From the NCBI RefSeq assembly GCF_027460065.1, contig NZ_JAPYZZ010000001.1, forward strand, positions 826,501 through 890,500: 64,000 bases of DNA, read 5' to 3'. The position numbers were made by a program, and so were the translations under genes. The notes below the pieces were generated by a model. It saw nothing but the letters and a program-made list of their open reading frames with translations, made no database searches and was not told the DNA's origin. The stretch comes from Martinezella rhizogenes. Its GTDB lineage: Bacteria > Pseudomonadota > Alphaproteobacteria > Rhizobiales > Rhizobiaceae. Shown piece by piece: positions 30,055 to 42,655 of the stretch; positions within the stretch are counted from its first letter, which is position 1, and the number at the start of each line of letters is the position of its first letter.

Positions 30055-31062
30055 TTACTGGCCGCGGATCTTCTTCAGGTCGGCCAGAACGGCGTCAACG
30101 ACATCAGCGCCGATTTCAGCCTTGTGCTTTTCGTAAACGACCATCGATTTTTCGCGGATACGGGTCTGCTCTTCCGGAGACAGCGTGTTCACTTCGAGGC
30201 CGGCAGCCTTGATCTTTTCCAGCGACTTCTGGTTCAGTTCGCGGATGACCTTGCGCTCTTCGTCGCGGCCGACGACTGCGCATTCACGCAGGGCCGTCTG
30301 TTCTTCGGGCGTGTAGCTGTCGAAGATCGGCTTGGAGAAGAGGAAGAGGAACGGCGTGTAGGCGTGGTTCGTCTCGGTGATGTACTTCTGCACCTCGTAG
30401 AACTTGGAGGTGTCGATCGTCACATAGGGGTTTTCCTGCGCGTCGATCGCGTTGGTTTCAAGCGCCGAGAAGACTTCGCCGAAAGCCATCGGCGTCGCGT
30501 TGGCGCCGAGGTTCTGGAAGGTGTCGAGGAAGATGTTGTTCTGCATCACGCGGACCTTGAGGCCCGAGAAATCTTCCCACTTGTTCACGGCATGCTTGGA
30601 GTTCGACAGGTTGCGGAAGCCGTTTTCCCAGTAGGCCAGGTTTACGAGGCCCTGTTCTTCCAGCTTCTTGTTCATCATGTCGCCGAAAGCGCCGTCCATG
30701 ACCGCGTCAGCTTCCTTGTCGTTCGCAAAGAGGAACGGCAGGTCAAAGACGCCGAGTGACGGGATGAGGCCGACGAGCGGCGACGAGGAGGTCACGACGG
30801 CTTCCTGAACGCCGGAGCGCAGGGCCTGCGTTGCCTGAAGGTCACCGCCGAGAGCGCCGCCCCAGAATGCCGTCAGCTTAAGCTTGCCGCCCGACTTGTC
30901 GTCGAGGCAGGCCTGCATGGCCTTGATGCCGTTGCCGACCGGGTGATCCTGGTTGATGCCGTTCGAAACGCGGATATTGCGGCTGTTGAATTCGGCCATT
31001 GCGGGTGCAGCGGCGCCAACGGCGAAAGCGATGGCCGTGGTGGTCAGAAGAAGCTTTCTCAT
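30055..31062 (-). CDS. dctP: TRAP transporter solute-binding protein (DctP family)
   Basis: A 335-residue periplasmic receptor of a tripartite ATP-independent transporter. Residues 1-23 form a Sec signal (RKLLLTTTAIAFAVGAAAPAMA). The DctP signature is clear: GNGIKAMQACLDDKSGGKLKL, the ligand-coordinating arginine in WEDFSGLKVRVMQNN, then ATPMAFGEVFSALETNAIDAQENP. The arginine binds a carboxylate, so the substrate is an organic acid. The ATG at 31062 has GGGAGGATATT. It is the last gene of the FAH-dctQ-dctM-dctP run, which points to a sugar acid rather than a C4-dicarboxylate. Confidence 0.93.
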   Translation of the reverse strand: MRKLLLTTTAIAFAVGAAAPAMAEFNSRNIRVSNGINQDHPVGNGIKAMQACLDDKSGGKLKLTAFWGGALGGDLQATQALRSGVQEAVVTSSSPLVGLIPSLGVFDLPFLFANDKEADAVMDGAFGDMMNKKLEEQGLVNLAYWENGFRNLSNSKHAVNKWEDFSGLKVRVMQNNIFLDTFQNLGANATPMAFGEVFSALETNAIDAQENPYVTIDTSKFYEVQKYITETNHAYTPFLFLFSKPIFDSYTPEEQTALRECAVVGRDEERKVIRELNQKSLEKIKAAGLEVNTLSPEEQTRIREKSMVVYEKHKAEIGADVVDAVLADLKKIRGQ

Positions 31063-31103
31063 AATATCCTCCCTTGGATTGTGTTTGAGAAACAGGTTGC
31101 GGA

Positions 31104-32381
31104 TTAACGGAGATACTGCAGCGGTACGAGGACGATGTCCGGGAAAATCACCAGCAGTGCCAGAACGATGGTTTCGGCAACGAGGAACGGCCAGACACCG
31201 ATCGTGACCTTGCCGAGCGGAATGCGTCCGACACCGCTGACGACGTTCAGCACGACGCCAACCGGAGGCGTAATCAGGCCGATGGCGTTGTTGATGATGA
31301 AGAGAACGCCGAAATAGACCGGGTCGATGCCCGCCTGCTTGATGATCGGCATCAGGACAGGCGTCAGGATCAGGATGGTCGGCGTCAGGTCGAGCGCGGT
31401 GCCGACGATGAAGACCAGCACCATGATGACGGCCATCAAGAGCATCGGACGGTCGATCAGCGGCTCGATATAACCGGCGACTTCGTTCGGAATGTTTGCA
31501 GCCGTTATGAGCCATGCGGAGACGAGCGCGGCGCAGACCAGGAACATGATGATCGAGGTGCTCTTGGCAGCGCGCAGAAGGACGTGGAACAGGTCCGCCG
31601 GCTTCAGTTCGCGGTAGATCACCATGCCGACGAAAAGCGCGTAGGCGGCGGCGACGACGGCAGCTTCCGTCGGCGTCATGATGCCGGCCTTGATGCCGCC
31701 CAGGATGATGACCGGCATGCCGAGCGCCCAGCCGGCGCGGGCAGTCGCCGTCAGGCGTTCCCTGGCCGTGGTTCTCGGCAGCGGCTTGACGTTGTCCTTG
31801 CGCACCACGATCAGCCAGGCGACGATCAGCGAAATGCCCATCAGGATGCCGGGTACGATGCCGGCAAGGAAAAGCTGCGTGATCGAGACGTTGGCCGCGA
31901 CACCGAAGACGATGAAAGCCATGGACGGCGGAATAACGGGGGCGATGATGCCGCCTGCGGCGATGAGGCCGCCGGAGCGGGGAATATTGTAACCGGCCTT
32001 CGCCATCATCGGGATGAGGATTGCGGCAAGGGCCGCGGTGTCGGCTGCAGCCGAACCGGAGATGCTGGCCATGATGATGGCCGCGACGATGGCCACGATG
32101 CCGAGGCCGCCGCGGATGTGGCCGACGAGAGCGATCGCAAAGTCGATGATGCGGCGGGACAGGCCACCGGAATTCATCAGTTCGCCGGCCAGAATGAAGA
32201 AGGGAATGGCGAGCAGCGTGAAGGTGTCCGCGCCCGAAATCATGTTCTGGGCAATGATGGCGGTGTTGAACATGCCCATGTACCACATGAGCACTACGCC
32301 GCAGAACATCAGCGAGAAAGCGACGGGAACGCCAATCGCCATGGCTCCCAAGAGAGAGCCGACAAAAACGAGAAGTGTCAT
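31104..32381 (-). CDS. dctM: TRAP transporter large permease (DctM family)
   Basis: A 425-residue integral membrane protein, the sodium-driven translocation subunit of the TRAP system. It opens with VFVGSLLGAMAIGVPVAFSL and shows the family's ISGSAAADTAALAAILIPMM segment and GGIIAPVIPPSMAFIVFGV, plus PTEAAVVAAAYALFVG and a repeat-like second half with NAIGLITPPVGVVLNV. It follows dctQ after 4 bp and precedes dctP by 41 bp, so all three are translated from one message. Confidence 0.95.
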   Translation of the reverse strand: MTLLVFVGSLLGAMAIGVPVAFSLMFCGVVLMWYMGMFNTAIIAQNMISGADTFTLLAIPFFILAGELMNSGGLSRRIIDFAIALVGHIRGGLGIVAIVAAIIMASISGSAAADTAALAAILIPMMAKAGYNIPRSGGLIAAGGIIAPVIPPSMAFIVFGVAANVSITQLFLAGIVPGILMGISLIVAWLIVVRKDNVKPLPRTTARERLTATARAGWALGMPVIILGGIKAGIMTPTEAAVVAAAYALFVGMVIYRELKPADLFHVLLRAAKSTSIIMFLVCAALVSAWLITAANIPNEVAGYIEPLIDRPMLLMAVIMVLVFIVGTALDLTPTILILTPVLMPIIKQAGIDPVYFGVLFIINNAIGLITPPVGVVLNVVSGVGRIPLGKVTIGVWPFLVAETIVLALLVIFPDIVLVPLQYLR

Positions 32382-32385
32382 GGTA

Positions 32386-32916
32386 TCAGCGCTCCGAAAG
32401 CTGTTCGATCGTCAGGTTCTCGCCCGCGAACTGGGCGATTTCATCTTCCGTGACGCGGCCCGTCAAAAGACGGTACAGGCGTTCCAGCGCGATGACGAAC
32501 ATCAGTCCGCCGGTGAACATGCCGATGCCGTAGACCCAGATCATCGACAGCTTGGTGACGGGCGCATGCATGCTGGCATTGATGCCGGACTGCTTCCAGG
32601 TTCCCCAGAAGAAGATGGCGGAACAGGCCAGGATGATGATGTTCGACGCGATCATGCAAAAGACGCGGGCGCGCCGCGATAGGAACATCACGAGCGTTTC
32701 AATGCCCATGTGGCTGTTTTCGCGAAAGGTCAGCACGGCGCCGAGGAAGGTCAGCCATACGAAGAAATAACGCGACAGTTCTTCCGAGACGTTGATGCCG
32801 GAATTCATCGTATAACGCATGACGACGTTGACGAAGACCATGATCGACATGCCGGCGAGCAGCGCGACGAGGATGATTTCGAGAATCCGGTAAAAGAGAT
32901 TGATGGTCTTTTGCAT
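32386..32916 (-). CDS. dctQ: TRAP transporter small permease (DctQ family)
   Basis: A 176-residue four-helix membrane protein: ILEIILVALLAGMSIMVFVNVVM as helix 1, SRYFFVWLTFLGAVLTFREN as the second segment with the family's WLTFLGA, then two further helices. DctQ is the small membrane subunit that pairs with DctM. It begins 21 bp after the FAH-family gene stop and is directly followed by dctM. Confidence 0.92.
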   Translation of the reverse strand: MQKTINLFYRILEIILVALLAGMSIMVFVNVVMRYTMNSGINVSEELSRYFFVWLTFLGAVLTFRENSHMGIETLVMFLSRRARVFCMIASNIIILACSAIFFWGTWKQSGINASMHAPVTKLSMIWVYGIGMFTGGLMFVIALERLYRLLTGRVTEDEIAQFAGENLTIEQLSER

Positions 32917-32937
32917 TTTCCCCTCCCGAAGAAATGT

Positions 32938-34098
32938 TTAGAGCAATCCTCGTTTCGCGAGGTTGCGCATCAGGGCCACGGTGCCGAATGTCCATTCAGG
33001 GCATTCATCCGTCGTCGTGACCCAGTTGATCAACTTGCCGAGCTTGGGCGTGGAGATTTCGACGCGGTCGCCCTTGGCGTGGGTGAAGCCGAGACCCGGG
33101 CCATGGCGGTCCTTGACCGGCGCGAACATCGTCCCAAGGAAAAAGACGGCGCCATCTGGATATTGATGGTTACGGTTCAAGAGCTGGGACGCGAGGTTTT
33201 CCGGCGTGCGGCTGATTGCCTGCATCGCACTGACGCCCGTCATGGTGAAACCGTCCTCGCCTTCGACCAGAAGCGAGATCTGCGACTGCTTCACGTCTTC
33301 AATTGTGAAGTTGCCGTCGAACAGGCGGATGAAAGGCCCAATCGCGCAGGAAGCGTTGTTGTCCTTCGCCTTGCTGAGGAGCAGGGCGGAGCGGCCTTCG
33401 AAATCGCGCAGGTTGACGTCGTTGCCGAGGGTTGCGCCGACAATGCGGCCGTCGGAGGCGATGGCGAGCACCACTTCCGGCTCAGGGTTGTTCCATTGCG
33501 ATTTCGGGTGAACACCGATCAGCGCGCCGCAGCCGACCGAGGCCATGGCCTGCGCCTTGGAGAATATTTCCGCATCCGGGCCGATGCCCACTTCCAGATA
33601 TTGCGACCAGAGGCCCATTTCCTGGAGCAGTTTCTTGACTTCCGCGGCCTTTTCGGAGCCGGCCTCAAGTCCCCGCAGATTGTCGCCGAGAACCGGCGCC
33701 AGCCGTCCGCGGATTTCCTGCGCGCGAAGCGGATCACCCTTGGCCTGCTCTTCGATCACGCGTTCCAGCATGCTGTCGGCGAAGGTGACGCCGGCGGCCT
33801 TGACGGCCTGAATGTCGTTGGGCGCAAGAAGTTCGCCAGCGGAGCCGTCCAGAAAGGCTTCGAACGCGCCGAGCGCCACGAACGTCCGGGTGTCGGCAAG
33901 CCGCTCCACCAGATCGGTCTTTTCCAGAAGTTCCGACATGGTAGGGGAGATAGAGGTTAGGTCATAAAGTACGCCACCCTTGAGTAGCACGGGGCAGGGA
34001 CCGCCTTCACTTTTCGACCAGACGCGGCCGACGAGCAGCGCGTTTTCGAAGTCTTCAGGCAAAATTGCGGTAGCGTCGATGGACCTCTTGCCGGTCAT
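32938..34098 (-). CDS. Fumarylacetoacetate hydrolase (FAH) family protein, possible keto-deoxy sugar-acid dehydratase
   Basis: A 386-residue FAH-superfamily protein. The C-terminal catalytic part has the metal-site pattern: VGIGPDAEIFSKAQ, then NNPEPEVVLAIASDGRIVGA (Glu-x-Glu pair) and TLGNDVNLRDFEGRSALLLS (Asp), with GPFIRLFD later. Length and the long N-terminal domain resemble Caulobacter XylX-type 2-keto-3-deoxy-pentonate dehydratases rather than the 220-residue hydrolases; this is from memory, not alignment. Working with the IlvD/Edd dehydratase of this island it could turn a 2-keto-3-deoxy sugar acid into a semialdehyde. The ATG at 34098 has GGAGGAC; it leads the dctQMP run and has a GntR-type operator upstream. 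Confidence 0.85.
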   Translation of the reverse strand: MTGKRSIDATAILPEDFENALLVGRVWSKSEGGPCPVLLKGGVLYDLTSISPTMSELLEKTDLVERLADTRTFVALGAFEAFLDGSAGELLAPNDIQAVKAAGVTFADSMLERVIEEQAKGDPLRAQEIRGRLAPVLGDNLRGLEAGSEKAAEVKKLLQEMGLWSQYLEVGIGPDAEIFSKAQAMASVGCGALIGVHPKSQWNNPEPEVVLAIASDGRIVGATLGNDVNLRDFEGRSALLLSKAKDNNASCAIGPFIRLFDGNFTIEDVKQSQISLLVEGEDGFTMTGVSAMQAISRTPENLASQLLNRNHQYPDGAVFFLGTMFAPVKDRHGPGLGFTHAKGDRVEISTPKLGKLINWVTTTDECPEWTFGTVALMRNLAKRGLL

Positions 34099-34150
34099 GT
34101 AGTCCTCCCCTTCAACACCCGACAGGCCGCCTCCTGCGGTCTTATTGTCT

Positions 34151-34165
34151 GGATGTCTGACAACC
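34151..34165. promoter_or_regulatory. FadR/GntR-type operator before the FAH-dctQMP operon
   Basis: GGATGTC-T-GACAACC is a 15-bp near-perfect palindrome (one mismatched pair) of the TTGTCnGACAA type used by FadR-subfamily GntR regulators. It lies about 55 bp upstream of the FAH gene start and 137 bp past the gntR stop. The same core recurs at 36672. Confidence 0.7.
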
Positions 34166-34301
34166 AAATCTCACTCTTCTTAGTATGACTTTTGCGGCGA
34201 GTCTAGCGGTGCATCCGACAAAAATTCGCCATATTCGCCATCGCCATCCAACAAATGCGGTGAAGCTGTCTTATAGCTTCAATACCAACGGCGTCCAAAG
34301 A

Positions 34302-35018
34302 TCAGAAGATGTCGAGATCGATGTTCAGTCGTCGGGCAGCGCCTAAAATGTGCTGGCGCATGGCATCTCGCGCCAGCGCAACATTTCGCGATGCAATTGC
34401 TTCCCGCAGCACGACATGCTCGTTTATGGTGATTTCCAGGATTTCGCCGTAAACGGCCCGCGAAAAAGCGGTATTGATTGCCGAGCTGATGCGTTGGGCA
34501 ATGAAGCCAAGAAAAATCAGGAAATATTCATTACCGGTGGCTTGCGCCATGGTGCGATGGAAATCGAGATCAGCTTCGACCCCGTCCTTGGACCATTCGA
34601 TAGCATTGCGCATGCCGTAAATGGCCTTGTCGAACTTTTCCAGATGTTCGGGTTTGTGATGCAATGCCGCAAGGCCTGCGGCATCGATCTCCAGCGACAT
34701 CCGAAGTTGCATCAGGTCTCGGAAGTTTTCGGGATCGTTCAGGGTGGATTGCTCGATCCGGATCGACAATCGTTGCCGCGGATCTGTTACAAAAGCGCCT
34801 ACCCCTTGCCGGGTTTCAACGAAACCTTCGTTGCGCAATTGCGCGATCGCCTCGCGAATGACCGAACGGCTGACGCCGAAGGTTTTTGCAAGCACATGTT
34901 CCGTCGGCAGCCTGTCACCCGGCCCGAGCTGCGAATCATTGATCTCGCGAGCGATCTCCGTGGCGATACGGCCGGGCAGATGATCGTTGCGATGTATCTG
35001 ATTGAACTCCAGCGTCAT
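34302..35018 (-). CDS. GntR-family regulator, FadR subfamily
   Basis: A 238-residue regulator. Residues 10-80 are the GntR winged helix: IATEIAREINDSQLGPGDRLP, EHVLAKTFGVSRSVIREAIAQL, NEGFVETRQGVGAFV. The rest is the all-helical FCD effector domain with DLMQLRMSLEIDAAGLAA, LDFHRTMAQATGNEYFL (Asp/His metal-site residues) and a final INEHVVLREAIASRN, binding an organic-acid ligand. It sits between the two arms of the sugar-acid island, and palindromes typical of its subfamily stand before both, so it is the probable local repressor. An ATG at 35018 follows a GGGAGC-like ribosome-binding site. Confidence 0.93.
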   Translation of the reverse strand: MTLEFNQIHRNDHLPGRIATEIAREINDSQLGPGDRLPTEHVLAKTFGVSRSVIREAIAQLRNEGFVETRQGVGAFVTDPRQRLSIRIEQSTLNDPENFRDLMQLRMSLEIDAAGLAALHHKPEHLEKFDKAIYGMRNAIEWSKDGVEADLDFHRTMAQATGNEYFLIFLGFIAQRISSAINTAFSRAVYGEILEITINEHVVLREAIASRNVALARDAMRQHILGAARRLNIDLDIF

Positions 35019-35133
35019 GATTGCTCCCGTTCCACAGAAACGATTGGTTCGTTTTCCCCATGGCAGCGACTTCCTCCTTCGCCGTCAGCGGGGTTTTCAG
35101 AGGCGGCGTGTTCGGCCGCCCTCTGCTTCTCGA

Positions 35134-36612
35134 TTAGCTATCCGGTTGCAGGGTTATCTGGCAACCGGGATTCATCCGCAAATCGGGATCGAAGGCATTT
35201 TTCAAACCCGTGATCATCCGACGCTGCACATCCGATAGCCGGCTTTCGAAATCGGAGCGTTTCAGTCGGCCAATGCCGTGTTCGGCACTGATGCTGCCGA
35301 CGTAACGGTCGAGGACTTCGTTCACGAGTGTCTTGGACTTGTAGATAAAGGCCTCTCGCTCTTCCGGCGTTGCGCCGTTGGGCGGCAGCACGTTGAGGTG
35401 GACGTTGCCGTCTCCCACATGGCCGTAGGAAACCGCAAGGCATTCCGGCAGTTTTTCCGCCAGTTCCGCTTCCGCCTCGGCTACGAAAGCCGCGAGTTTG
35501 GAGAGTGGCACCGAGATATCGGTGCGCATATGACTGCCGCGCAGAGCCTGACCTTCGTTCATGCCCTCGCGGAACAGCCAGAGCGACTGCGCCTGTGCGC
35601 GGGAGGAGGCGATGACGCCGTCCAGCACCAGGCCATCTTCCATCACGCCCTCGAGGAAACGCCCCATCAGATCGGCTGTATCCACCAGGCCCGATCCGGA
35701 AATCTCCATCAGCACATAGGCCGGGTAGTCGCCGGCGATCGGCATCTTCAGATCGGGGATAGCCTCGATCGCGAGCGTGAAGGCGACGGGCGGCATGAAT
35801 TCGAATGCGGACATCAGATCACAGCATTCGCGGCGAGCGCGGCGGTAAAGCTTGATGGCGTCGTCAAGTGAATTGAGGCCGAGCAGCGCCGTCTCGACAT
35901 GTTCGGGGTTGGGGTAAAGTTTGACGGCAACGGCGGTGATGATGCCGAGTGTTCCTTCCGCGCCGATGAAAAGCTGCTTCAGGTCGATGCCGCGATTGTC
36001 CTTGCGCAGGGTCGACAGGCCGTTCCAGATGGTGCCATCCGGCAATACCACTTCAAGACCCAAAACCAGTTCGCGGGTCATGCCATAACGCAGGACATTG
36101 ATGCCGCCGGCATTGGTGGAGACGTTGCCGCCGATGCGGCAGCTGCCCTGCGCGCCGAGCGACAGCGGGAAGAACATGCTCTTGTCCTGCACCGCATCCT
36201 TGAATTCCGAGAGGATGCAGCCGGCTTCGACCACGGCCGAAAAATCGTCGCTGTCTATGGTGCGAATGGCGTTCATGCGCTCTAGGCTCATCACCACCTG
36301 ATGTTTGGGTGCATCGGGAATGCCGCCGAGCACCAGTCCGGTATTGCCGCCCTGGGGGATGATGGCGAGGCCGAGTTCGGCGCAGGCGAGCACGGTATCG
36401 GACACTTCCTTGGTCGAGCGAGGGCGGATGACGGCCACGGCCGAACTGGTGACGTCGCCGTGCCAGTCACGGCAATAACGCAGCATGTCTTCCTGAGACG
36501 TCAGCAGCAGGGCCTCCCCCAGCCTGTTCTTCAGCGAGAAACGCAATTCCTCGATATTGTGTTCGCTCAATTCCACCCTCTCCGTCCAATCCGCCCTAAA
36601 ATATCCGGGCAA
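35134..36612 (-). CDS. FAD-linked 2-hydroxyacid dehydrogenase (GlcD / D2HGDH family)
   Basis: A vanillyl-alcohol-oxidase-fold flavoenzyme of up to 492 residues. The FAD-binding PP-loop reads IIPQGGNTGLVLGG near 95, followed by AGCILSEFKDAV, LGAQGSCRIGGNVSTNAGGINVLRYG (the conserved GG-NxxTNAGG motif) and FIGAEGTLGIIT. The C-terminal cap has SYGHVGDGNVHLNV, HxDGNxH-like metal residues, and SAEHGIGRLK. It oxidises a D-2-hydroxyacid to the 2-keto acid, passing electrons to the respiratory chain or a flavoprotein. The frame opens with TTG at 36612; GTG at 36576 or TTG at 36570, both near GAGAGGG, are alternatives. Located upstream of gntR on the same strand, divergent from the DenD-like gene. Confidence 0.88.
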   Translation of the reverse strand: MPGYFRADWTERVELSEHNIEELRFSLKNRLGEALLLTSQEDMLRYCRDWHGDVTSSAVAVIRPRSTKEVSDTVLACAELGLAIIPQGGNTGLVLGGIPDAPKHQVVMSLERMNAIRTIDSDDFSAVVEAGCILSEFKDAVQDKSMFFPLSLGAQGSCRIGGNVSTNAGGINVLRYGMTRELVLGLEVVLPDGTIWNGLSTLRKDNRGIDLKQLFIGAEGTLGIITAVAVKLYPNPEHVETALLGLNSLDDAIKLYRRARRECCDLMSAFEFMPPVAFTLAIEAIPDLKMPIAGDYPAYVLMEISGSGLVDTADLMGRFLEGVMEDGLVLDGVIASSRAQAQSLWLFREGMNEGQALRGSHMRTDISVPLSKLAAFVAEAEAELAEKLPECLAVSYGHVGDGNVHLNVLPPNGATPEEREAFIYKSKTLVNEVLDRYVGSISAEHGIGRLKRSDFESRLSDVQRRMITGLKNAFDPDLRMNPGCQITLQPDS

Positions 36613-36665
36613 GAGTCTTTCGCCCTTGCTTTTACCGGTTTGTGAAAAATACTATTTTCAATCGG

Positions 36666-36695
36666 ATCATATAAGGTTATCAGACAACCTTACAA
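36666..36695 (-). promoter_or_regulatory. Predicted promoter of the GlcD-type gene, overlapped by the operator
   Basis: On the minus strand TTGTAA, an 18-base spacer and TATGAT make a good sigma-70-type promoter. The spacer is filled by the 21-bp palindrome listed separately, so a bound regulator would block RNA polymerase. Confidence 0.6.
36672..36692. promoter_or_regulatory. FadR/GntR-type operator between the divergent GlcD-type and DenD-like genes
   Basis: TAAGGTTATC-A-GACAACCTTA is a 21-bp palindrome with one mismatched pair. Its core GGTTrTCnGACAACC is shared with the site at 34151. Placed to control both divergent genes. Confidence 0.75.
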
Positions 36696-36769
36696 GTTAA
36701 TTTATCGGTCGCCAGGCCGATGGTGATTTTCGGTCCCGGGAGAATGGCCGGGACATAGAGGAGGAAGAC

Positions 36770-37756
36770 ATGCATATCGCAATCATCGGCGCCGCAGGCA
36801 TGGTTGGCCGCAAGCTGACGCAGCGTCTCGTCAAGGATGGATCGCTCGGCGGCAAGCCGGTCGAGAAGTTCACGCTCATCGACGTGTTCCAGCCTGAAGC
36901 TCCCGCCGGTTTTTCCGGCGCGGTCGATGCGCGCGCGGCCGATCTCTCGGCGCCCGGCGAAGCCGAAAAGCTGGTCGAAGCCCGTCCCGATGTCATCTTC
37001 CACCTTGCCGCCATCGTTTCCGGCGAAGCTGAGCTGGATTTCGACAAGGGTTACCGCATCAATCTTGATGGCACGCGTTATCTCTTCGACGCCATCCGCC
37101 TTGCCAATGGCAAGGATGGCTACAAGCCGCGCGTGGTGTTCACCTCGTCGATCGCCGTTTTCGGTGCGCCGCTTCCCTATCCGATCCCGGATGAATTCCA
37201 CACCACGCCGCTGACCAGCTACGGCACGCAGAAGGCGATCTGCGAGTTGCTGCTCTCCGATTACAGCCGCCGCGGGTTCTTCGACGGTATCGGCATCCGC
37301 CTTCCCACCATCTGCATTCGTCCCGGCAAGCCGAACGCGGCTGCTTCCGGCTTCTTCTCCAATATCCTGCGTGAGCCGCTGGTTGGCCAGGAAGCGGTTC
37401 TGCCGGTGCCGGAAAGCATTCGCCACTGGCACGCCTCGCCGCGTTCCGCCGTCGGTTTTCTTCTCCATGGTGCAACGATCGACGTGGAAAAGGTCGGCCC
37501 GCGCCGCAACCTGTCGATGCCCGGCCTCAGCGCCACCGTTGGCGAACAGATCGAGGCGCTGCGCAAGGTGGCCGGTGAAAAGGCCGTTGCCCTCATCCGC
37601 TGCGAGCCGAACGAGATGATCATGCGCATGTGCGAAGGCTGGGCGCCCGGTTTCGAAGCCAAGCGCGCCCGGGAACTGGGCTTTACGGCCGAGAGTTCGT
37701 TTGAAGAAATCATTCAGGTTCATATCGAGGACGAGCTGGGAGGTTCACTGAAATGA
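36770..37756 (+). CDS. DenD-like NAD-dependent sugar-acid dehydrogenase (extended SDR)
   Basis: A 328-residue extended short-chain dehydrogenase/epimerase-like protein. The NAD motif is IAIIGAAGMVGRKLTQRLV at 3-21; the active-site triad is Ser in VVFTSSIAVFG (about 125) and the Tyr-x-x-x-Lys pair in TSYGTQKAICE (about 150). Strong resemblance in the opening and in RPGKPNAAASGFFSNILREP to D-erythronate dehydrogenase (DenD), recalled rather than aligned. DenD pathways also need a DUF1537 kinase, an isomerase and an aldolase, none of which is here, so the substrate may differ. It ends in a 4-bp ATGA overlap with the next gene. Confidence 0.85.
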   Translation: MHIAIIGAAGMVGRKLTQRLVKDGSLGGKPVEKFTLIDVFQPEAPAGFSGAVDARAADLSAPGEAEKLVEARPDVIFHLAAIVSGEAELDFDKGYRINLDGTRYLFDAIRLANGKDGYKPRVVFTSSIAVFGAPLPYPIPDEFHTTPLTSYGTQKAICELLLSDYSRRGFFDGIGIRLPTICIRPGKPNAAASGFFSNILREPLVGQEAVLPVPESIRHWHASPRSAVGFLLHGATIDVEKVGPRRNLSMPGLSATVGEQIEALRKVAGEKAVALIRCEPNEMIMRMCEGWAPGFEAKRARELGFTAESSFEEIIQVHIEDELGGSLK

Positions 37757-38655
37757 GTGTTGGCGGGGAGGAGAAGAAGCGGTCTGTCGCCTTTATCGGC
37801 ACGGGCCTGATGGGTGGGCCGATGGCCCGGCGTCTGCTGGGTGCCGGCTTTTCGGTAAAGGTCTGGAACCGCAGCGTCGATAAGGCGCAGGCGCTGGTTG
37901 CCGATGGTGCTGTTCTGGCGACCTCTCCGGTGGAAGCCGCCAAGGGTGCCGATATCGTCATCACCATGCTGAGCGACGGCAATGCCGTGGGCGAAGTGCT
38001 GTTTGAGGCGGGCGTGGCCGAAGCGCTGGCAAAGGGTGCTGTCGTGATCGACAGCAGCTCGATTGCACCGCCGATTGCGCGCGACCATTCCTCGCGGCTT
38101 GAAGCGCTCGGCATTCATCATGTTGATGCGCCGGTTTCCGGCGGTGTGCCCGGCGCAACGGCCGGCACGCTCGCCATCATGGCGGGTGGGGACGAGGCAC
38201 TGATTGCGGGTCTCGCAGATGTCTTCGCGCCGATGGGCAGGCTGACCTACGTTGGCCCTTCGGGCGCGGGCCAGCTCTGCAAGCTCGCCAACCAGCAGAT
38301 CGTCGCCATCACCATCGGTGCGGTTGCCGAGGCAATGATGCTGGTGGAAGCGGGCGGCGCCTCCCGTGAAGGGTTCCGCAATGCCATACGCGGCGGTTTT
38401 GCCGAAAGCCGGATCCTGGAACTGCATGGCGAGCGCATGGTGAAGCGCAATTTCGTGCCGGGCGGTCCGTCCAAGTTCCAGCTCAAGGATTTGAATGGTG
38501 TATTGGCGACGGCCAGGGATCTTGCTCTCACCCTGCCGCTCACCCAGCAGGTCACGCGGGAATTTGATGATTTCGTCGGTGATGGCGGGGCCGATATCGA
38601 TCATAGCGGCATCCTGCTTTACCTCGAAAAACTCAACAATCGTGAACAGGGCTGA
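37753..38655 (+). CDS. NAD(P)-dependent beta-hydroxyacid dehydrogenase (3-hydroxyisobutyrate dehydrogenase family)
   Basis: A 300-residue protein of the GarR/GlxR/3-HIBDH family. The Rossmann motif is VAFIGTGLMGGPMARRLLGAG at 12-32; substrate-binding DAPVSGGVPGATAGTLAIM is near 125-143 and the catalytic lysine is in GAGQLCKLANQQ (about 175). Family members reduce tartronate semialdehyde or oxidise L-threonate, 3-hydroxyisobutyrate and similar beta-hydroxyacids. It overlaps the DenD-like gene by 4 bp and is 9 bp ahead of the dehydratase gene, so it belongs to the same operon. Exact substrate not decided by sequence. Confidence 0.88.
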   Translation: MSVGGEEKKRSVAFIGTGLMGGPMARRLLGAGFSVKVWNRSVDKAQALVADGAVLATSPVEAAKGADIVITMLSDGNAVGEVLFEAGVAEALAKGAVVIDSSSIAPPIARDHSSRLEALGIHHVDAPVSGGVPGATAGTLAIMAGGDEALIAGLADVFAPMGRLTYVGPSGAGQLCKLANQQIVAITIGAVAEAMMLVEAGGASREGFRNAIRGGFAESRILELHGERMVKRNFVPGGPSKFQLKDLNGVLATARDLALTLPLTQQVTREFDDFVGDGGADIDHSGILLYLEKLNNREQG

Positions 38656-38664
38656 GGCGGGCCG

Positions 38665-40449
38665 ATGAGCGACGACAAGACACCCATGCGCCGCCTGCGA
38701 TCGCAGGACTGGTTCGATAACCCCGATCATCTCGACATGACGGCGCTCTATCTGGAGCGCTTCATGAATTACGGCGTGACGCCGGAAGAGCTGCGTTCCG
38801 GCAAGCCGGTGATCGGCATTGCGCAGAGCGGCAGCGATCTCACGCCCTGCAACCGGGTCCATGTGGAACTGGTCAAGCGGGTGCGGGACGGCATCCGCGA
38901 TGCGGGCGGCATACCGATCGAGTTTCCGACCCATCCTATGTTCGAAAACTGCAAGCGCCCGACTGCGGCGCTGGACCGTAATCTCGCTTATCTCAGCCTC
39001 GTGGAAGTGCTTTACGGCTATCCGCTCGATGGTGTCGTTCTGACAACCGGCTGCGACAAGACCACGCCTTCGGCGCTGATGGCGGCGAGTACGGTCGATA
39101 TTCCCGCTATCGTGCTTTCCGGCGGGCCAATGCTCGACGGGTATCATGACGGTGATCTGGTCGGTTCCGGCACCGTCATCTGGCGCATGCGCCGCAAATA
39201 TGGTGCAGGCGAAATCACCCGCGAGGAGTTTTTGCAGGCGGCGCTGGAATCGGCTCCGTCGGTCGGCCATTGCAACACCATGGGTACGGCCTCTACCATG
39301 AATGCCATGGCGGAAGCGCTCGGCATGTCGCTGACCGGTTGCGGAGCGATCCCCGCCGCCTATCGCGAGCGCGGCCAGATGGCCTATCGCACCGGCCGTC
39401 GTGCCGTCGAACTGGTTGTCGAGAATATCAAGCCTTCCGACATCATGACACGCGAGGCGTTTTTGAACGCGATCCGCGTCAACTCGGCGATTGGCGGTTC
39501 CACCAACGCGCAGCCGCATCTGGCGGCGATGGCGAAACATGCCGGTGTCGAGCTTCGCGAAGAGGATTGGCAGGTCCACGGCTATGACATTCCGCTGCTG
39601 GCCAATGTGCAGCCGGCGGGAAAATGGCTGGGCGAAAAATATCACCGCGCCGGCGGCACGCCTGCCATCATGTGGGAACTTCTGAAGGCCGGGAAACTCG
39701 ACGGAAGCTGTCCGACCGTGACCGGCAAGACCATGGCGGAAAATCTGGACGGGCGTGAATCGACCGACCGCGACGTGATCCTGCCCTATGACAGTCCGCT
39801 CAAGGAGCGGGCAGGTTTCCTTGTTCTCAAGGGTAATCTTTTCGATTTCGCCATCATGAAGACAAGCGTGATCTCTGCGGAGTTTCGCCAGCGTTATCTG
39901 AGCGAGTCGGGTCGCGAGGGGATATTTGAGGGCAAGTGCGTCGTATTCGATGGTTCGGAGGATTATCACGCCCGTATCAACGATCCCTTACTTGATATTG
40001 ACGAGCGCACCATCCTCGTCATTCGTGGCGCAGGGCCGCTTGGCTGGCCGGGTTCGGCAGAGGTCGTCAACATGCAGCCGCCGGATGCGCTTCTGAAAAA
40101 AGGCATTACCAGCCTGCCGACGATCGGCGACGGTCGGCAGTCGGGAACGGCGGATAGCCCGTCGATCCTCAATGCTTCCCCGGAAAGTGCGGCGGGTGGC
40201 GGGCTGGCATGGCTGCGCACCGGCGATGTGATCCGCATCGACTTCAACAATGGTGAGTGCAACGCGCTGGTGCCGCAAGCGGAGCTTGATGCCCGCAAGG
40301 CCGACGGCATTCCCGCCGTGCCCGCGGATGCAACGCCCTGGCAACGCATCTATCGTCAATCGGTGACCCAGCTTTCCGATGGCGCCGTGTTGGAAGGGGC
40401 TGCAGATTTCCGCCGGATTGCCGAAAAAATGCCCCGGCACAATCATTGA
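38665..40449 (+). CDS. IlvD/Edd-family sugar-acid dehydratase (pentonate dehydratase-like)
   Basis: A 594-residue Fe-S dehydratase. Candidate cluster cysteines are Cys62 ([10 protein letters not shown]), Cys130 (TTGCDKTTP, with the Lys132 that is carbamylated in the family) and Cys203 ([19 protein letters not shown]). The [19 protein letters not shown] opening and the overall pattern resemble D-xylonate and L-arabinonate dehydratases (Caulobacter XylD, rhizobial arabonate dehydratase) rather than IlvD itself. The enzyme would turn an aldonate into a 2-keto-3-deoxy acid. Last gene of the plus-strand arm, followed by a strong terminator. Calling it branched-chain dihydroxyacid dehydratase would be wrong given the context. 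Confidence 0.9.
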
Positions 40450-40460
40450 CCGAAGAGGAC

Positions 40461-40489
40461 AAAATCCCCGGCCAAGGCCGGGGATTTTT
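40461..40489 (+). terminator. Rho-independent terminator of the sugar-acid plus-strand operon
   Basis: AAAATCCCCGGCC and GGCCGGGGATTTT pair around AA, followed by TCTTTT, 12 bases after the dehydratase stop. Confidence 0.92.
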
Positions 40490-40574: not shown

Positions 40575-41549
40575 ATGACAGATATTTCGATGATCGAGGC
40601 GGCGCGTGTGCGCATCGGCAACCATGCGGTGCGAACACCGCTGCTCGCATCGCCTTTTCTGGACGAGATTGCCGGGCGAAAGCTGTTCGTGAAGGCGGAA
40701 TGCCTGCAAAGGACGGGATCCTTCAAGTTTCGTGGCGGCTGGTCGGCGGTATCCGGCCTGCCGGCGGATGTGCGTGCCAAGGGTGTGATCGCCTTTTCCT
40801 CCGGCAACCATGCACAGGGCGTGGCGCTCGCCGCCCGCCTGCACGGTATTCCCGCCGTCATCATCATGCCTTCGGATGCGCCGAAGATCAAAATCGACAA
40901 TACCCGCTCCTATGGCGCCGAGGTGGTGCTTTATGACCGGGCGAATGAAGACCGTGACGCCATTGGCAACCGGTTGTCGAGCGACCGCGGTCTGACCCTG
41001 ATCAGGCCTTACGATGAACCGCTGGTGATTGCGGGGCAGGGGACTGTCGGGCTGGAAATCGCTGAGCAGGGCGCCGAACTCGGTATCGGTACTGCCGAGG
41101 TTCTGGTGCCTTGCGGCGGTGGCGGGCTTACCTCCGGCATCTCTCTTGCACTCGATGCGAAGGCGCAAAATTATAGGGTCAGGACGTCAGAACCGGAGCG
41201 TTTCGATGATGTGGCGCGCTCCCTTGCGGCGGGCAAGATCGAGCGGAATGCGACGACATCGGGTTCGATCTGTGATGCAATCGTCACGCCGCAGCCTGGC
41301 AATATCACCTTTCCCATCATGGCAGGGCTTTGTGGGAAAGGTATCGCCGTCAGCGACGAGGAAGCGCTGCGGGCGATGGTTCTCGCCTTCAACAGGCTGA
41401 AGGTCGTTATCGAGCCGGGTGGTGCTGTTGCGCTTGCCGCAGCGCTGTTTCATGGCAAGGAACTGGAAAGCGAAACCGTGATTGCGGTTGCCTCCGGCGG
41501 CAATGTCGATCCCGGGATCATGGCCGACGCTCTGTCACGCTTCGGCTGA
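40575..41549 (+). CDS. Threonine/serine dehydratase-like PLP enzyme
   Basis: A 324-residue fold-type II PLP enzyme. The PLP lysine is in TGSFKFRGGWSAV (about Lys51), the SSGNHAQGVALAAR loop binds substrate carboxylate, and VPCGGGGLTSG is the phosphate-binding glycine loop; EPGGAVALAAAL near the end is typical of the threonine dehydratase/serine racemase/3-hydroxyaspartate ammonia-lyase group. There is no ACT regulatory domain, so it is catabolic-type rather than IlvA. Its own promoter lies after the strong terminator of the sugar-acid operon. It could make a keto acid from a hydroxy amino acid; the precise substrate is open. Confidence 0.88.
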   Translation: MTDISMIEAARVRIGNHAVRTPLLASPFLDEIAGRKLFVKAECLQRTGSFKFRGGWSAVSGLPADVRAKGVIAFSSGNHAQGVALAARLHGIPAVIIMPSDAPKIKIDNTRSYGAEVVLYDRANEDRDAIGNRLSSDRGLTLIRPYDEPLVIAGQGTVGLEIAEQGAELGIGTAEVLVPCGGGGLTSGISLALDAKAQNYRVRTSEPERFDDVARSLAAGKIERNATTSGSICDAIVTPQPGNITFPIMAGLCGKGIAVSDEEALRAMVLAFNRLKVVIEPGGAVALAAALFHGKELESETVIAVASGGNVDPGIMADALSRFG

Positions 41550-41551
41550 CA

Positions 41552-42655
41552 TCAGGCCTCTAACTGTGCGGCGATGTCGCCGGCAATCGCCAGCGAGGCG
41601 GTCAAACCGGGGCTTTCGATGCCGAACAGATTGACGAGGCCGGGAAGACCATGGGTTTCCGGTCCATCGATGCGAAAATCCATGGCCGGTTCGTCCGGTC
41701 CGGAAATCTTCGGGCGGATACCGGAATAGGCCGGGGTCAGCGCGTGTTCCGGCAGGCCCGGCCAATAACGCCTTATGGCGTCGCCGAAACCCTCCATGCG
41801 GCGGGGATCAACGGCATAGTCGATGGTATCAACCCATTCCACATCCGGCCCGAACCGGGCCTGACCGGCGAGATCCAGCGTCAGGTGCACACCGAGGCCG
41901 TGGGTGTGCGGTGCAGGATAGATCAACCGCGAAAAAGGCGATTTACCTGTCAGCGAGAAATAGCTGCCTTTGGCGAAACGCGCCTGCGGGATCGCCTCTG
42001 ACGGCAGTCCCTCTATCATGGCCGCCACCATCGGCGCGACGAGCCCGGCGGAATTGACGAGCAGCCGGCATGTAAGGCTGACAGGTTCTTTTCCGCCGAC
42101 ATGAACCCGGAAACCGTCGCCGATCGCTTCCGCCCGTTCGAACGGCGCGTTGAGGGCAAGTGCCGCGCCATGGTCTTGCGCTTCGCCAAGCAGCGACAGC
42201 ATGTATCCGTGGCTGTCGATAATGCCCGTCGAGGGTGAGAGCAGGGCTGAGCTGCAGGCAAGGGCAGGCTCGAGTGAAAGCGCGTATCGTTGGTCGATCA
42301 GCTCCAGATCGTCGCAGCCATTGGCTTCGCCCTTTGCGCTGAGGGCAGCGAGCAGGGGCGTTTCATCCTCGCTGGTGGCGACGATGAGTTTGCCGCAACG
42401 GCGGTGCGCAACGCCGTGGCTCTCGCAAAAGGCATAGAGCCGCTCCTTACCCTCGACACAGAGCCTCGCCTTGAGGCTGCCGGCTGGGTAATAGAGGCCC
42501 GCATGGATGACCTCGCTATTGCGGGACGAGGTGGCCGAACCGAATTCCTTCTCACTTTCCAGAATGATGACGGAGAAGCCGCGCATCGACAATTCGCGGG
42601 CTGTCGCAAGCCCGATCACGCCCGCTCCGATGATGATGGCGTCGATGTCAGTCAT
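41552..42655 (-). CDS. FAD-dependent oxidoreductase, L-2-hydroxyglutarate oxidase (LhgO)-like
   Basis: A 367-residue DAO-superfamily flavoenzyme. The FAD motif [20 protein letters not shown] is at 7-26, then [24 protein letters not shown], a stretch characteristic of L-2-hydroxyglutarate dehydrogenase/oxidase with the conserved HAGxYY, and [19 protein letters not shown]. The [21 protein letters not shown]-terminal segment completes the FAD site. It may oxidise L-2-hydroxyglutarate or a related 2-hydroxyacid to the keto acid. It converges on the dehydratase-like gene with a gap of two bases, so neither has a separate terminator. Confidence 0.86.

Follow-up and report, generated by a model that had tools for sequence, protein, structure and literature searches.

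A putative sugar-acid utilization unit of Rhizobiaceae in which a constant TRAP-GntR-GlcD-DenD core is joined to an optional dehydratase module

In this study, we analyzed a 64,000-nucleotide stretch of a Martinezella rhizogenes contig (the whole of which is called the window here), with particular attention to nine genes at positions 30055 to 40449 that encode a TRAP transporter (DctP, DctQ, and DctM), a long FAH-family protein, a FadR-type GntR regulator, a GlcD-like flavoenzyme, a DenD-like dehydrogenase, a 3-HIBDH-family reductase (HIB), and an IlvD/Edd dehydratase (Table 1). On balance, and if only by a little, we favor the view that these genes are a single GntR-controlled sugar-acid unit, with the transporter importing aldonates for two alternative enzyme arms. 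The genome is of the Agrobacterium type; its nearest named relative (L145) has a 99% identical GlcD-like protein. A preliminary description of this DNA had assigned the nine genes to families, and domain and family models recovered all of them as named, with the exception of the LtnD-type label given to HIB (139.8 bits with model NF043037, against a cutoff of 350). Judging by its model scores, HIB is GarR-like rather than LtnD-like, its nearest match being tartronate-semialdehyde reductase (TIGR01505; 264.3 bits, also below the cutoff of 340.75).

Table 1. Features of the locus, with window coordinates, strand, and supporting matches
Feature	Position	Strand	Support
DctP, TRAP solute-binding protein, 335 amino acids	30055..31062	-	PF03480, TIGR00787; best PDB match 7bbr, 292.8 bits
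DctM, TRAP large permease	31104..32381	-	PF06808; TIGR00786 above cutoff
DctQ, TRAP small permease	32386..32916	-	PF04290
FAH-family protein, predicted 2-keto-3-deoxy-D-pentonate dehydratase (XylX/COG3970 type)	32938..34098	-	PDB 9kkt, 407 bits; 2q18 family, 65 bits
Second operator-like site, GATGTCTGACAAC, one mismatch	34152..34164	.	53 bp upstream of the FAH ATG
FadR-type GntR regulator, likely controlling the unit	34302..35018	-	PF00392 and PF07729
GlcD/D2HGDH-type flavoenzyme, predicted (R)-2-hydroxy sugar-acid dehydrogenase	35134..36612 (start codon uncertain)	-	PF01565 and PF02913; 3pm9, 344 bits; 6lpn, 300 bits
Perfect operator-like palindrome, GTTATCAGACAAC, in the divergent GlcD-DenD promoter region	36676..36688	.	
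DenD-like NAD-dependent dehydrogenase	36770..37756	+	NF043036 above cutoff; PDB 2hrz, 724 bits, nearly identical
3-HIBDH-family reductase (HIB), GarR-like	37753..38655	+	TIGR01505 and NF043037 scores, both below cutoff
IlvD/Edd aldonate dehydratase	38665..40449	+	Nearest match 5OYN (D-xylonate dehydratase of Caulobacter), 1036 bits over residues 4-594
Terminator-like hairpin after the DenD-HIB-IlvD operon	40461..40488	+	12-pair stem, T tail

Spacing and orientation imply three transcription units, namely, FAH-DctQ-DctM-DctP and GlcD-GntR running leftwards and DenD-HIB-IlvD running rightwards. Within the first of these, the gaps from DctP to FAH are 41, 4, and 21 bp; in the last, DenD and HIB overlap by 4 bp and HIB and IlvD lie 9 bp apart. 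FAH likely starts at the ATG at 34098 rather than at the TTG at 34167 (the FAH query used for the searches of relatives, the presence counts, and the residue rows carried one extra codon ahead of this ATG). A scan for sigma-70 promoters found 2, against 3.6 expected.

The preliminary description had called for a neighborhood comparison across Rhizobiaceae. The comparison set comprised 80 loci, the best 80 of 197 picked by GlcD similarity, and its presence counts are somewhat reduced by contig ends (e.g., in L152). The cluster has a wide distribution among Rhizobiaceae, with Agrobacterium, Sinorhizobium, Neorhizobium, and Rhizobium among its hosts, and recurs in the same gene order across many genera; in Sinorhizobium meliloti 1021, it is carried by the megaplasmid pSymA. 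GlcD and DenD are present at all 80 loci, as is GntR, and TRAP is present at 77, FAH at 67, HIB at 66, and IlvD at 48. FAH and HIB tend to come and go together (both present at 64 loci, neither at 11, and discordant at 5; Fisher's P of 2.5e-9, uncorrected for relatedness), and HIB is present at every one of the 48 loci that hold IlvD. FAH, HIB, and IlvD are jointly missing from 11 loci, and the 10 loci that have TRAP but none of these three have kept both GlcD and DenD. Thus, of the mixed route proposed earlier, the combination of an IlvD and long-FAH pentonate core with a tetronate-type DenD stood up, whereas the genes do not make one linear mixture; instead, a constant TRAP-GntR-GlcD-DenD core is accompanied by an optional FAH-HIB-IlvD module. 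As a separate observation, a plasmid of Agrobacterium pusense (L226, 11192-16045) carries GntR-FAH-DctQ-DctM-DctP alone, near nitrite and nitric oxide reductase genes and with neither GlcD nor DenD nearby. Split genes were seen at two loci (HIB in L157; DctP and DctM in L224), each gene being divided into two open reading frames, possibly through sequencing errors or decay.

The same loci share an operator-like palindrome. A perfect copy, GTTRTCNGAYAAC, lies between GlcD and DenD once per locus at 80 of 80 loci (with the same letters as in the window at 79 and one variant). A copy with one mismatch precedes FAH at 61 of the 67 FAH loci, and where TRAP is present without FAH, such a copy precedes DctQ instead (9 of 10 loci, the exception being L179). 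The remaining 13 one-mismatch sites are located before GntR (5), before an enolase-family gene (1), and inside HIB (1), with 6 unassigned. In the window itself, three matches with at most one mismatch were found against 0.20 expected, a number that none of 100 shuffles reached; the 3′ end of the GlcD gene contains one of these matches. The perfect copy between GlcD and DenD is the only one in the genome. We infer that GntR is a local regulator of these operons and that the palindrome is its predicted site. Given the copies at the GlcD-DenD region and before FAH or DctQ, the nine genes are likely one locally regulated unit, and the shared sites point to the coregulation that had been proposed from the window alone. 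Further targets elsewhere in the genome were also considered and rejected, since 25 places match with at most one mismatch, compared to 23 in a reversed control.

How might such a unit work? The TRAP importer would bring in aldonates with broad specificity, and import of the finished acid would make an upstream aldose dehydrogenase and lactonase unnecessary in the cytoplasm. In the first arm, which corresponds to the optional module and whose chemistry is taken from close homologues, IlvD would act on a (2R,3S) aldonate (D-xylonate, for example), dehydrating it to 2-keto-3-deoxy-D-pentonate; FAH would dehydrate this in turn to 2-ketoglutarate semialdehyde (KGSA), and an aldehyde dehydrogenase would oxidize the latter to 2-ketoglutarate. 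HIB, the GarR-like reductase, would be an accessory of this arm. The residues involved are well conserved in the aligned rows, which omit loci whose open reading frame was missed by the caller (FAH, 66 rows for 67 loci; IlvD, 47 for 48; HIB, 64 for 66; DenD, 77 for 80; and GlcD, the query plus 79 of the 80 loci). The Fe-S cysteines (C62, C130, and C203) and the catalytic serine (S493) of IlvD are kept in 47 of 47 rows. The two dehydratases with structures are reported to be strict for both the C2 and the C3 configuration (PMC9795676). The five catalytic positions of FAH are kept in 65 to 66 of 66 rows, and its metal ligands and Glu/Lys dyad align with those of the Sulfolobus enzyme (position 164 of the catalytic-residue comparison is Glu in print and Asp in the aligned sequence). 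Based on these residues, FAH is predicted to be a 2-keto-3-deoxy-D-pentonate dehydratase; the window protein matched no NCBIfam family. FAH proteins of the COG3970 type are among the pentonate enzymes characterized in Herbaspirillum (PMC6336799).

A KGSA dehydrogenase, which the final step of this arm would require, had been noted as missing from the window. Four close relatives hold a candidate in the same operon, in the order HIB-IlvD-aldehyde dehydrogenase in L156 and HIB-aldehyde dehydrogenase in L154, L155, and L189, and its best model is KGSA dehydrogenase (555 bits, below the cutoff of 770); a KGSA-dehydrogenase-like gene is present at 5 of the 80 loci. In the present genome, the aldehyde dehydrogenases show at most 39% identity to this candidate. 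In our proposal, the oxidation would be carried out here by a different enzyme. Fifteen aldehyde dehydrogenases were found in the genome; among the 9 that were scanned, three score above the cutoff of the SSADH model TIGR01780, and one of these could stand in as KGSA dehydrogenase.

In the second arm, which corresponds to the constant core, the DenD-like NAD enzyme and the GlcD-like flavoenzyme would oxidize C2 of (2R) acids whose C3 configuration a stereospecific dehydratase cannot use, such as D-erythronate or D-ribonate. D-Erythronate and D-ribonate are (2R,3R) acids, while D-xylonate is (2R,3S). On the basis of these textbook configurations, the simplest split of substrates behind a single importer would give (2R,3S) acids to the dehydratase arm and (2R,3R) acids to the DenD/GlcD arm. 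This is the least secure part of the proposal, but such a split would account for lineages that lack FAH, HIB, and IlvD together and yet keep TRAP, DenD, and GlcD.

The flavoenzyme was compared with D-2-hydroxyglutarate dehydrogenase (D2HGDH). R348, H398, H405, E444, and H445, which make up the zinc and catalytic site, are kept in 80 of 80 rows; an Arg, two His, a Glu, and a His are common to D2HGDH and its paralogues for (R)-2-hydroxyacids (PMC7801405). In the distal pocket, the positions of Thr390 and Lys401 of human D2HGDH are taken by N352 and R363, again in 80 of 80 rows, whereas the equivalents of Tyr432 and Asn443 in the C5-carboxylate pocket are retained throughout. Among the genome's own paralogues (6 of 7 were aligned, L253 being left out), the Lys401 position holds Lys in L251, L252, and L255, Asp in L256, and Cys in L257, and none of the six has Asn at the Thr390 position. 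One of them, L252 on contig C19, is D2HGDH-like and keeps the equivalents of Lys401 and Tyr432, with a Tyr where the catalytic His476 would be expected.

These data bear on one alternative, which is that the cluster encodes an ordinary Weimberg pathway for D-xylonate, with DenD, the GlcD-like enzyme, and the GarR-like reductase only clearing side products such as D-2-hydroxyglutarate and stray sugar acids. IlvD and FAH are indeed close to characterized Weimberg enzymes, the Weimberg route ends in 2-ketoglutarate, and the GlcD-like enzyme belongs to the D2HGDH type. Nevertheless, we consider this explanation unlikely: GlcD and DenD remain at the 10 TRAP loci from which the entire dehydratase module is missing, the altered distal pocket is invariant in the rows compared, and two closer paralogues in the genome, L251 and L252, keep the Lys.

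The DenD-like protein passes the D-erythronate dehydrogenase model NF043036 (365.8 bits; cutoff, 325), keeps its Ser-Tyr-Lys triad in 77 of 77 rows, and is the only DenD in the genome at an E value of 1e-60. Of 36 DenD loci read from a family search, 10 (78 to 91% identity) are of the present cluster type; the other 26 (39 to 71%) have no GlcD neighbor, two of them (L034 and L044) being on short contigs. In a quick tree with long branches among the noncluster sequences, 91 distinct cluster DenDs (the window copy being represented by the 99% identical L145) form one clade (Shimodaira-Hasegawa-like approximate likelihood ratio test value, 99) beside the DenDs of tetronate clusters. The DenD of a Nitratireductor plasmid (L230), which lies beside a pentonate-type dehydratase, also passes the D-erythronate dehydrogenase model. 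On the short contig of L044 (513-6633), related TRAP genes (53 to 68%) accompany a 61% DenD and an SDR gene, with what appears by eye to be a LacI-type regulator in place of GntR and no GlcD.

A D-erythronate pathway that begins in the cluster and is finished elsewhere by OtnI, OtnK, and OtnC must be weighed here. Apart from the model score, DenD is 67.6% identical to its counterpart in a complete Sinorhizobium otn cluster (S. meliloti has a second DenD, encoded in such a cluster), and OtnK-like (43%) and OtnC-like (56%) genes lie side by side on contig C23 (L060). Candidates for the tetronate kinase and aldolase, which the preliminary description listed as absent from the window, thus lie elsewhere in the genome, but no OtnI isomerase was found there (best match, 36% over 92 of 258 residues). 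OtnI was sought in 50 of the 80 genomes as well (12 of the 13 FAH-less and 38 of the 67 FAH-plus genomes, the contig-end locus L152 being excluded from the former) and was not found at an E value of 1e-30 or better in 4 of the 12 and 17 of the 38, respectively. Moreover, IlvD and FAH have no role in such a pathway, which we regard as quite improbable. We also considered whether OtnI is retained in FAH-less genomes and found no link (8/12 versus 21/38 at the E value above; 1/12 versus 8/38 at an identity of at least 55%). The DUF1537 kinase of L060 (8470-11069), together with the OtnC-like aldolase, is accompanied by an Asp/Glu racemase-like gene (by eye), and a second DUF1537 kinase, on C2 (L061, 9504-13387), lies with PdxA-like and iron-type alcohol dehydrogenase genes (by eye); neither region has a DenD match.

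A third alternative is one linear new route, in which DenD, the GlcD-like enzyme, and the GarR-like reductase epimerize sugar acids, through oxidation and rereduction at C2, for the stereospecific dehydratase. The presence of HIB at every IlvD locus among the 80 would fit this, as would the position of IlvD, which adjoins DenD in L230 and L051 and lies about 1.3 kb from it in L048, and the GarR-like gene of L230, which occurs with a different FAH. On the other hand, L110 and L111, two loci outside the 80-locus set, hold IlvD, FAH, DenD, and GlcD without HIB. In addition, (R)-2-hydroxy acids are the expected substrates of GlcD-type enzymes and DenD alike, so that the two would not bring about epimerization by themselves. 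We therefore give this route a low probability, slightly below that of the ordinary Weimberg pathway. The L230 region (plasmid pNK_1, 5147-11579) reads IlvD-DenD-GntR-SDR-short FAH-GarR-like, with a lower half of the Route III type; its short FAH scores 433 bits with the 2,4-didehydro-3-deoxy-L-rhamnonate hydrolase model (cutoff, 500).

The two-arm unit that we favor has its own difficulties, and several observations weigh against it. Since the 80 loci were picked by GlcD similarity, the constancy of GlcD is by construction. A second site at one mismatch is lacking at six FAH loci (L153, L156, L176, L189, L200, and L202), and the module of L110 and L111 is without HIB, as described above. No close copy of the aldehyde dehydrogenase seen in the operons of relatives was found in the genome (best identity, 39%). 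In the same 50 related genomes (with L152 again excluded), that enzyme is present at an identity of at least 80% in 37, and the five nearest Agrobacterium genomes among them are without such a copy (one holds a 59% copy). A tie between KGSA dehydrogenase and FAH was rejected because the enzyme is present in 12 of 12 FAH-less genomes too. One aligned paralogue, L254, also has Arg at the Lys401 position; as Asn is shared with none of the six, it is the residue pair, rather than Arg alone, that sets the cluster enzyme apart. That no OtnI was found in the genome likewise counts against this view, and in open-license papers we found no substrate or binding reports for the cluster proteins.

Beyond the unit, the right boundary that had been placed at the end of IlvD was borne out by the strong terminator-like hairpin that follows it, and the threonine-dehydratase-like gene at 40575 is likely outside the unit. 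This gene encodes a pyridoxal phosphate enzyme (nearest to threo-3-hydroxyaspartate ammonia-lyase, below cutoff) and is convergent, at a distance of 2 bp, with a gene for an L-2-hydroxyglutarate-oxidase-like flavin adenine dinucleotide protein (also below cutoff); the pair occupies 40575-42655 and adjoins the cluster in close Agrobacterium relatives as well. An enolase-superfamily dehydratase occurs at 45 of the 80 loci, a KDPGal aldolase at 8, and DgoK at 7. The enolase-superfamily gene was rejected as a regulon member, having only one operator match before it, and is regarded as a cassette of its own, although two loci (L067 and L069) hold it in the operon at the usual place of IlvD. In L185, L190, L198, L209, and L210, the region beyond DctP holds genes for an enolase-superfamily sugar-acid dehydratase and a second GntR, along with three genes that, judged by eye, resemble those for an EamA-type exporter, the kinase DgoK, and KDPGal aldolase. 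This cassette resembles one for D-galactonate and may share the importer.

A tentative possibility, less likely than not, is that GlcD and DenD, a constant pair served by an importer and operator of their own, represent an undescribed C2-oxidizing route for sugar acids whose flavoenzyme has a new substrate specificity, and that the Weimberg genes are a plug-in gained or lost by lineages, widening the diet of the importer. The enzyme families are each known, but their combination, regulation, and modular history are not described in the searchable open-license literature. Within that literature, nothing in print was found on the function of the cluster, and, in agreement with the earlier view, no single characterized pathway that it matches; the matches listed for structure 2HRZ were tuberculosis papers only. 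One paper's table gives SMa0241, a tag presumably of the S. meliloti cluster, as an "epimerase." The cluster illustrates how a sugar-acid importer can keep an oxidative core while a dehydratase arm comes and goes. It yields sharp predictions of gene roles as well as a candidate operator, and its flavoenzymes form a subfamily in which two pocket residues are invariably changed. For annotation, it is a warning that its proteins may be misnamed as "D-erythronate dehydrogenase" and "glycolate oxidase."

As with the Weimberg pathway (Route II) of Caulobacter crescentus, which comprises XylD, XylX, and KGSA dehydrogenase, the cluster combines an IlvD/Edd and a long FAH dehydratase with conserved catalytic residues. 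However, it lacks a KGSA dehydrogenase here, adds the TRAP importer and the DenD, GlcD-like, and GarR-like genes, and has a FadR-type regulator accompanied by a shared operator-like palindrome. With the DenD/LtnD-OtnI-OtnK-OtnC tetronate pathway, it shares a DenD family member from an adjacent clade; unlike that pathway, it contains no LtnD, its genome yielded no OtnI, and the 43% kinase and 56% aldolase lie on a different contig. Route III of Herbaspirillum huttiense (KDP 4-dehydrogenase and 5-hydroxy-2,4-dioxopentanonate hydrolase) is alike in its nonphosphorylative use of pentonates and its FAH-superfamily enzyme, but the FAH described here is of the dehydratase type, and the cluster has neither an SDR dehydrogenase nor a short hydrolase; in Nitratireductor, genes of the Route III type do have DenD, IlvD, and a GarR-like gene as neighbors. 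Among importers, the likeness is to the CxaPQM TRAP system of Advenella, through a sequence match of DctP to its closest PDB entry, 7bbr, which we take to be the sugar-acid binder CxaP. Finally, the GlcD-like enzyme resembles D2HGDH (the human enzyme and the 3pm9 type) in family, metal site, and catalytic residues and differs from it in the change of Thr390 to Asn and of Lys401 to Arg.

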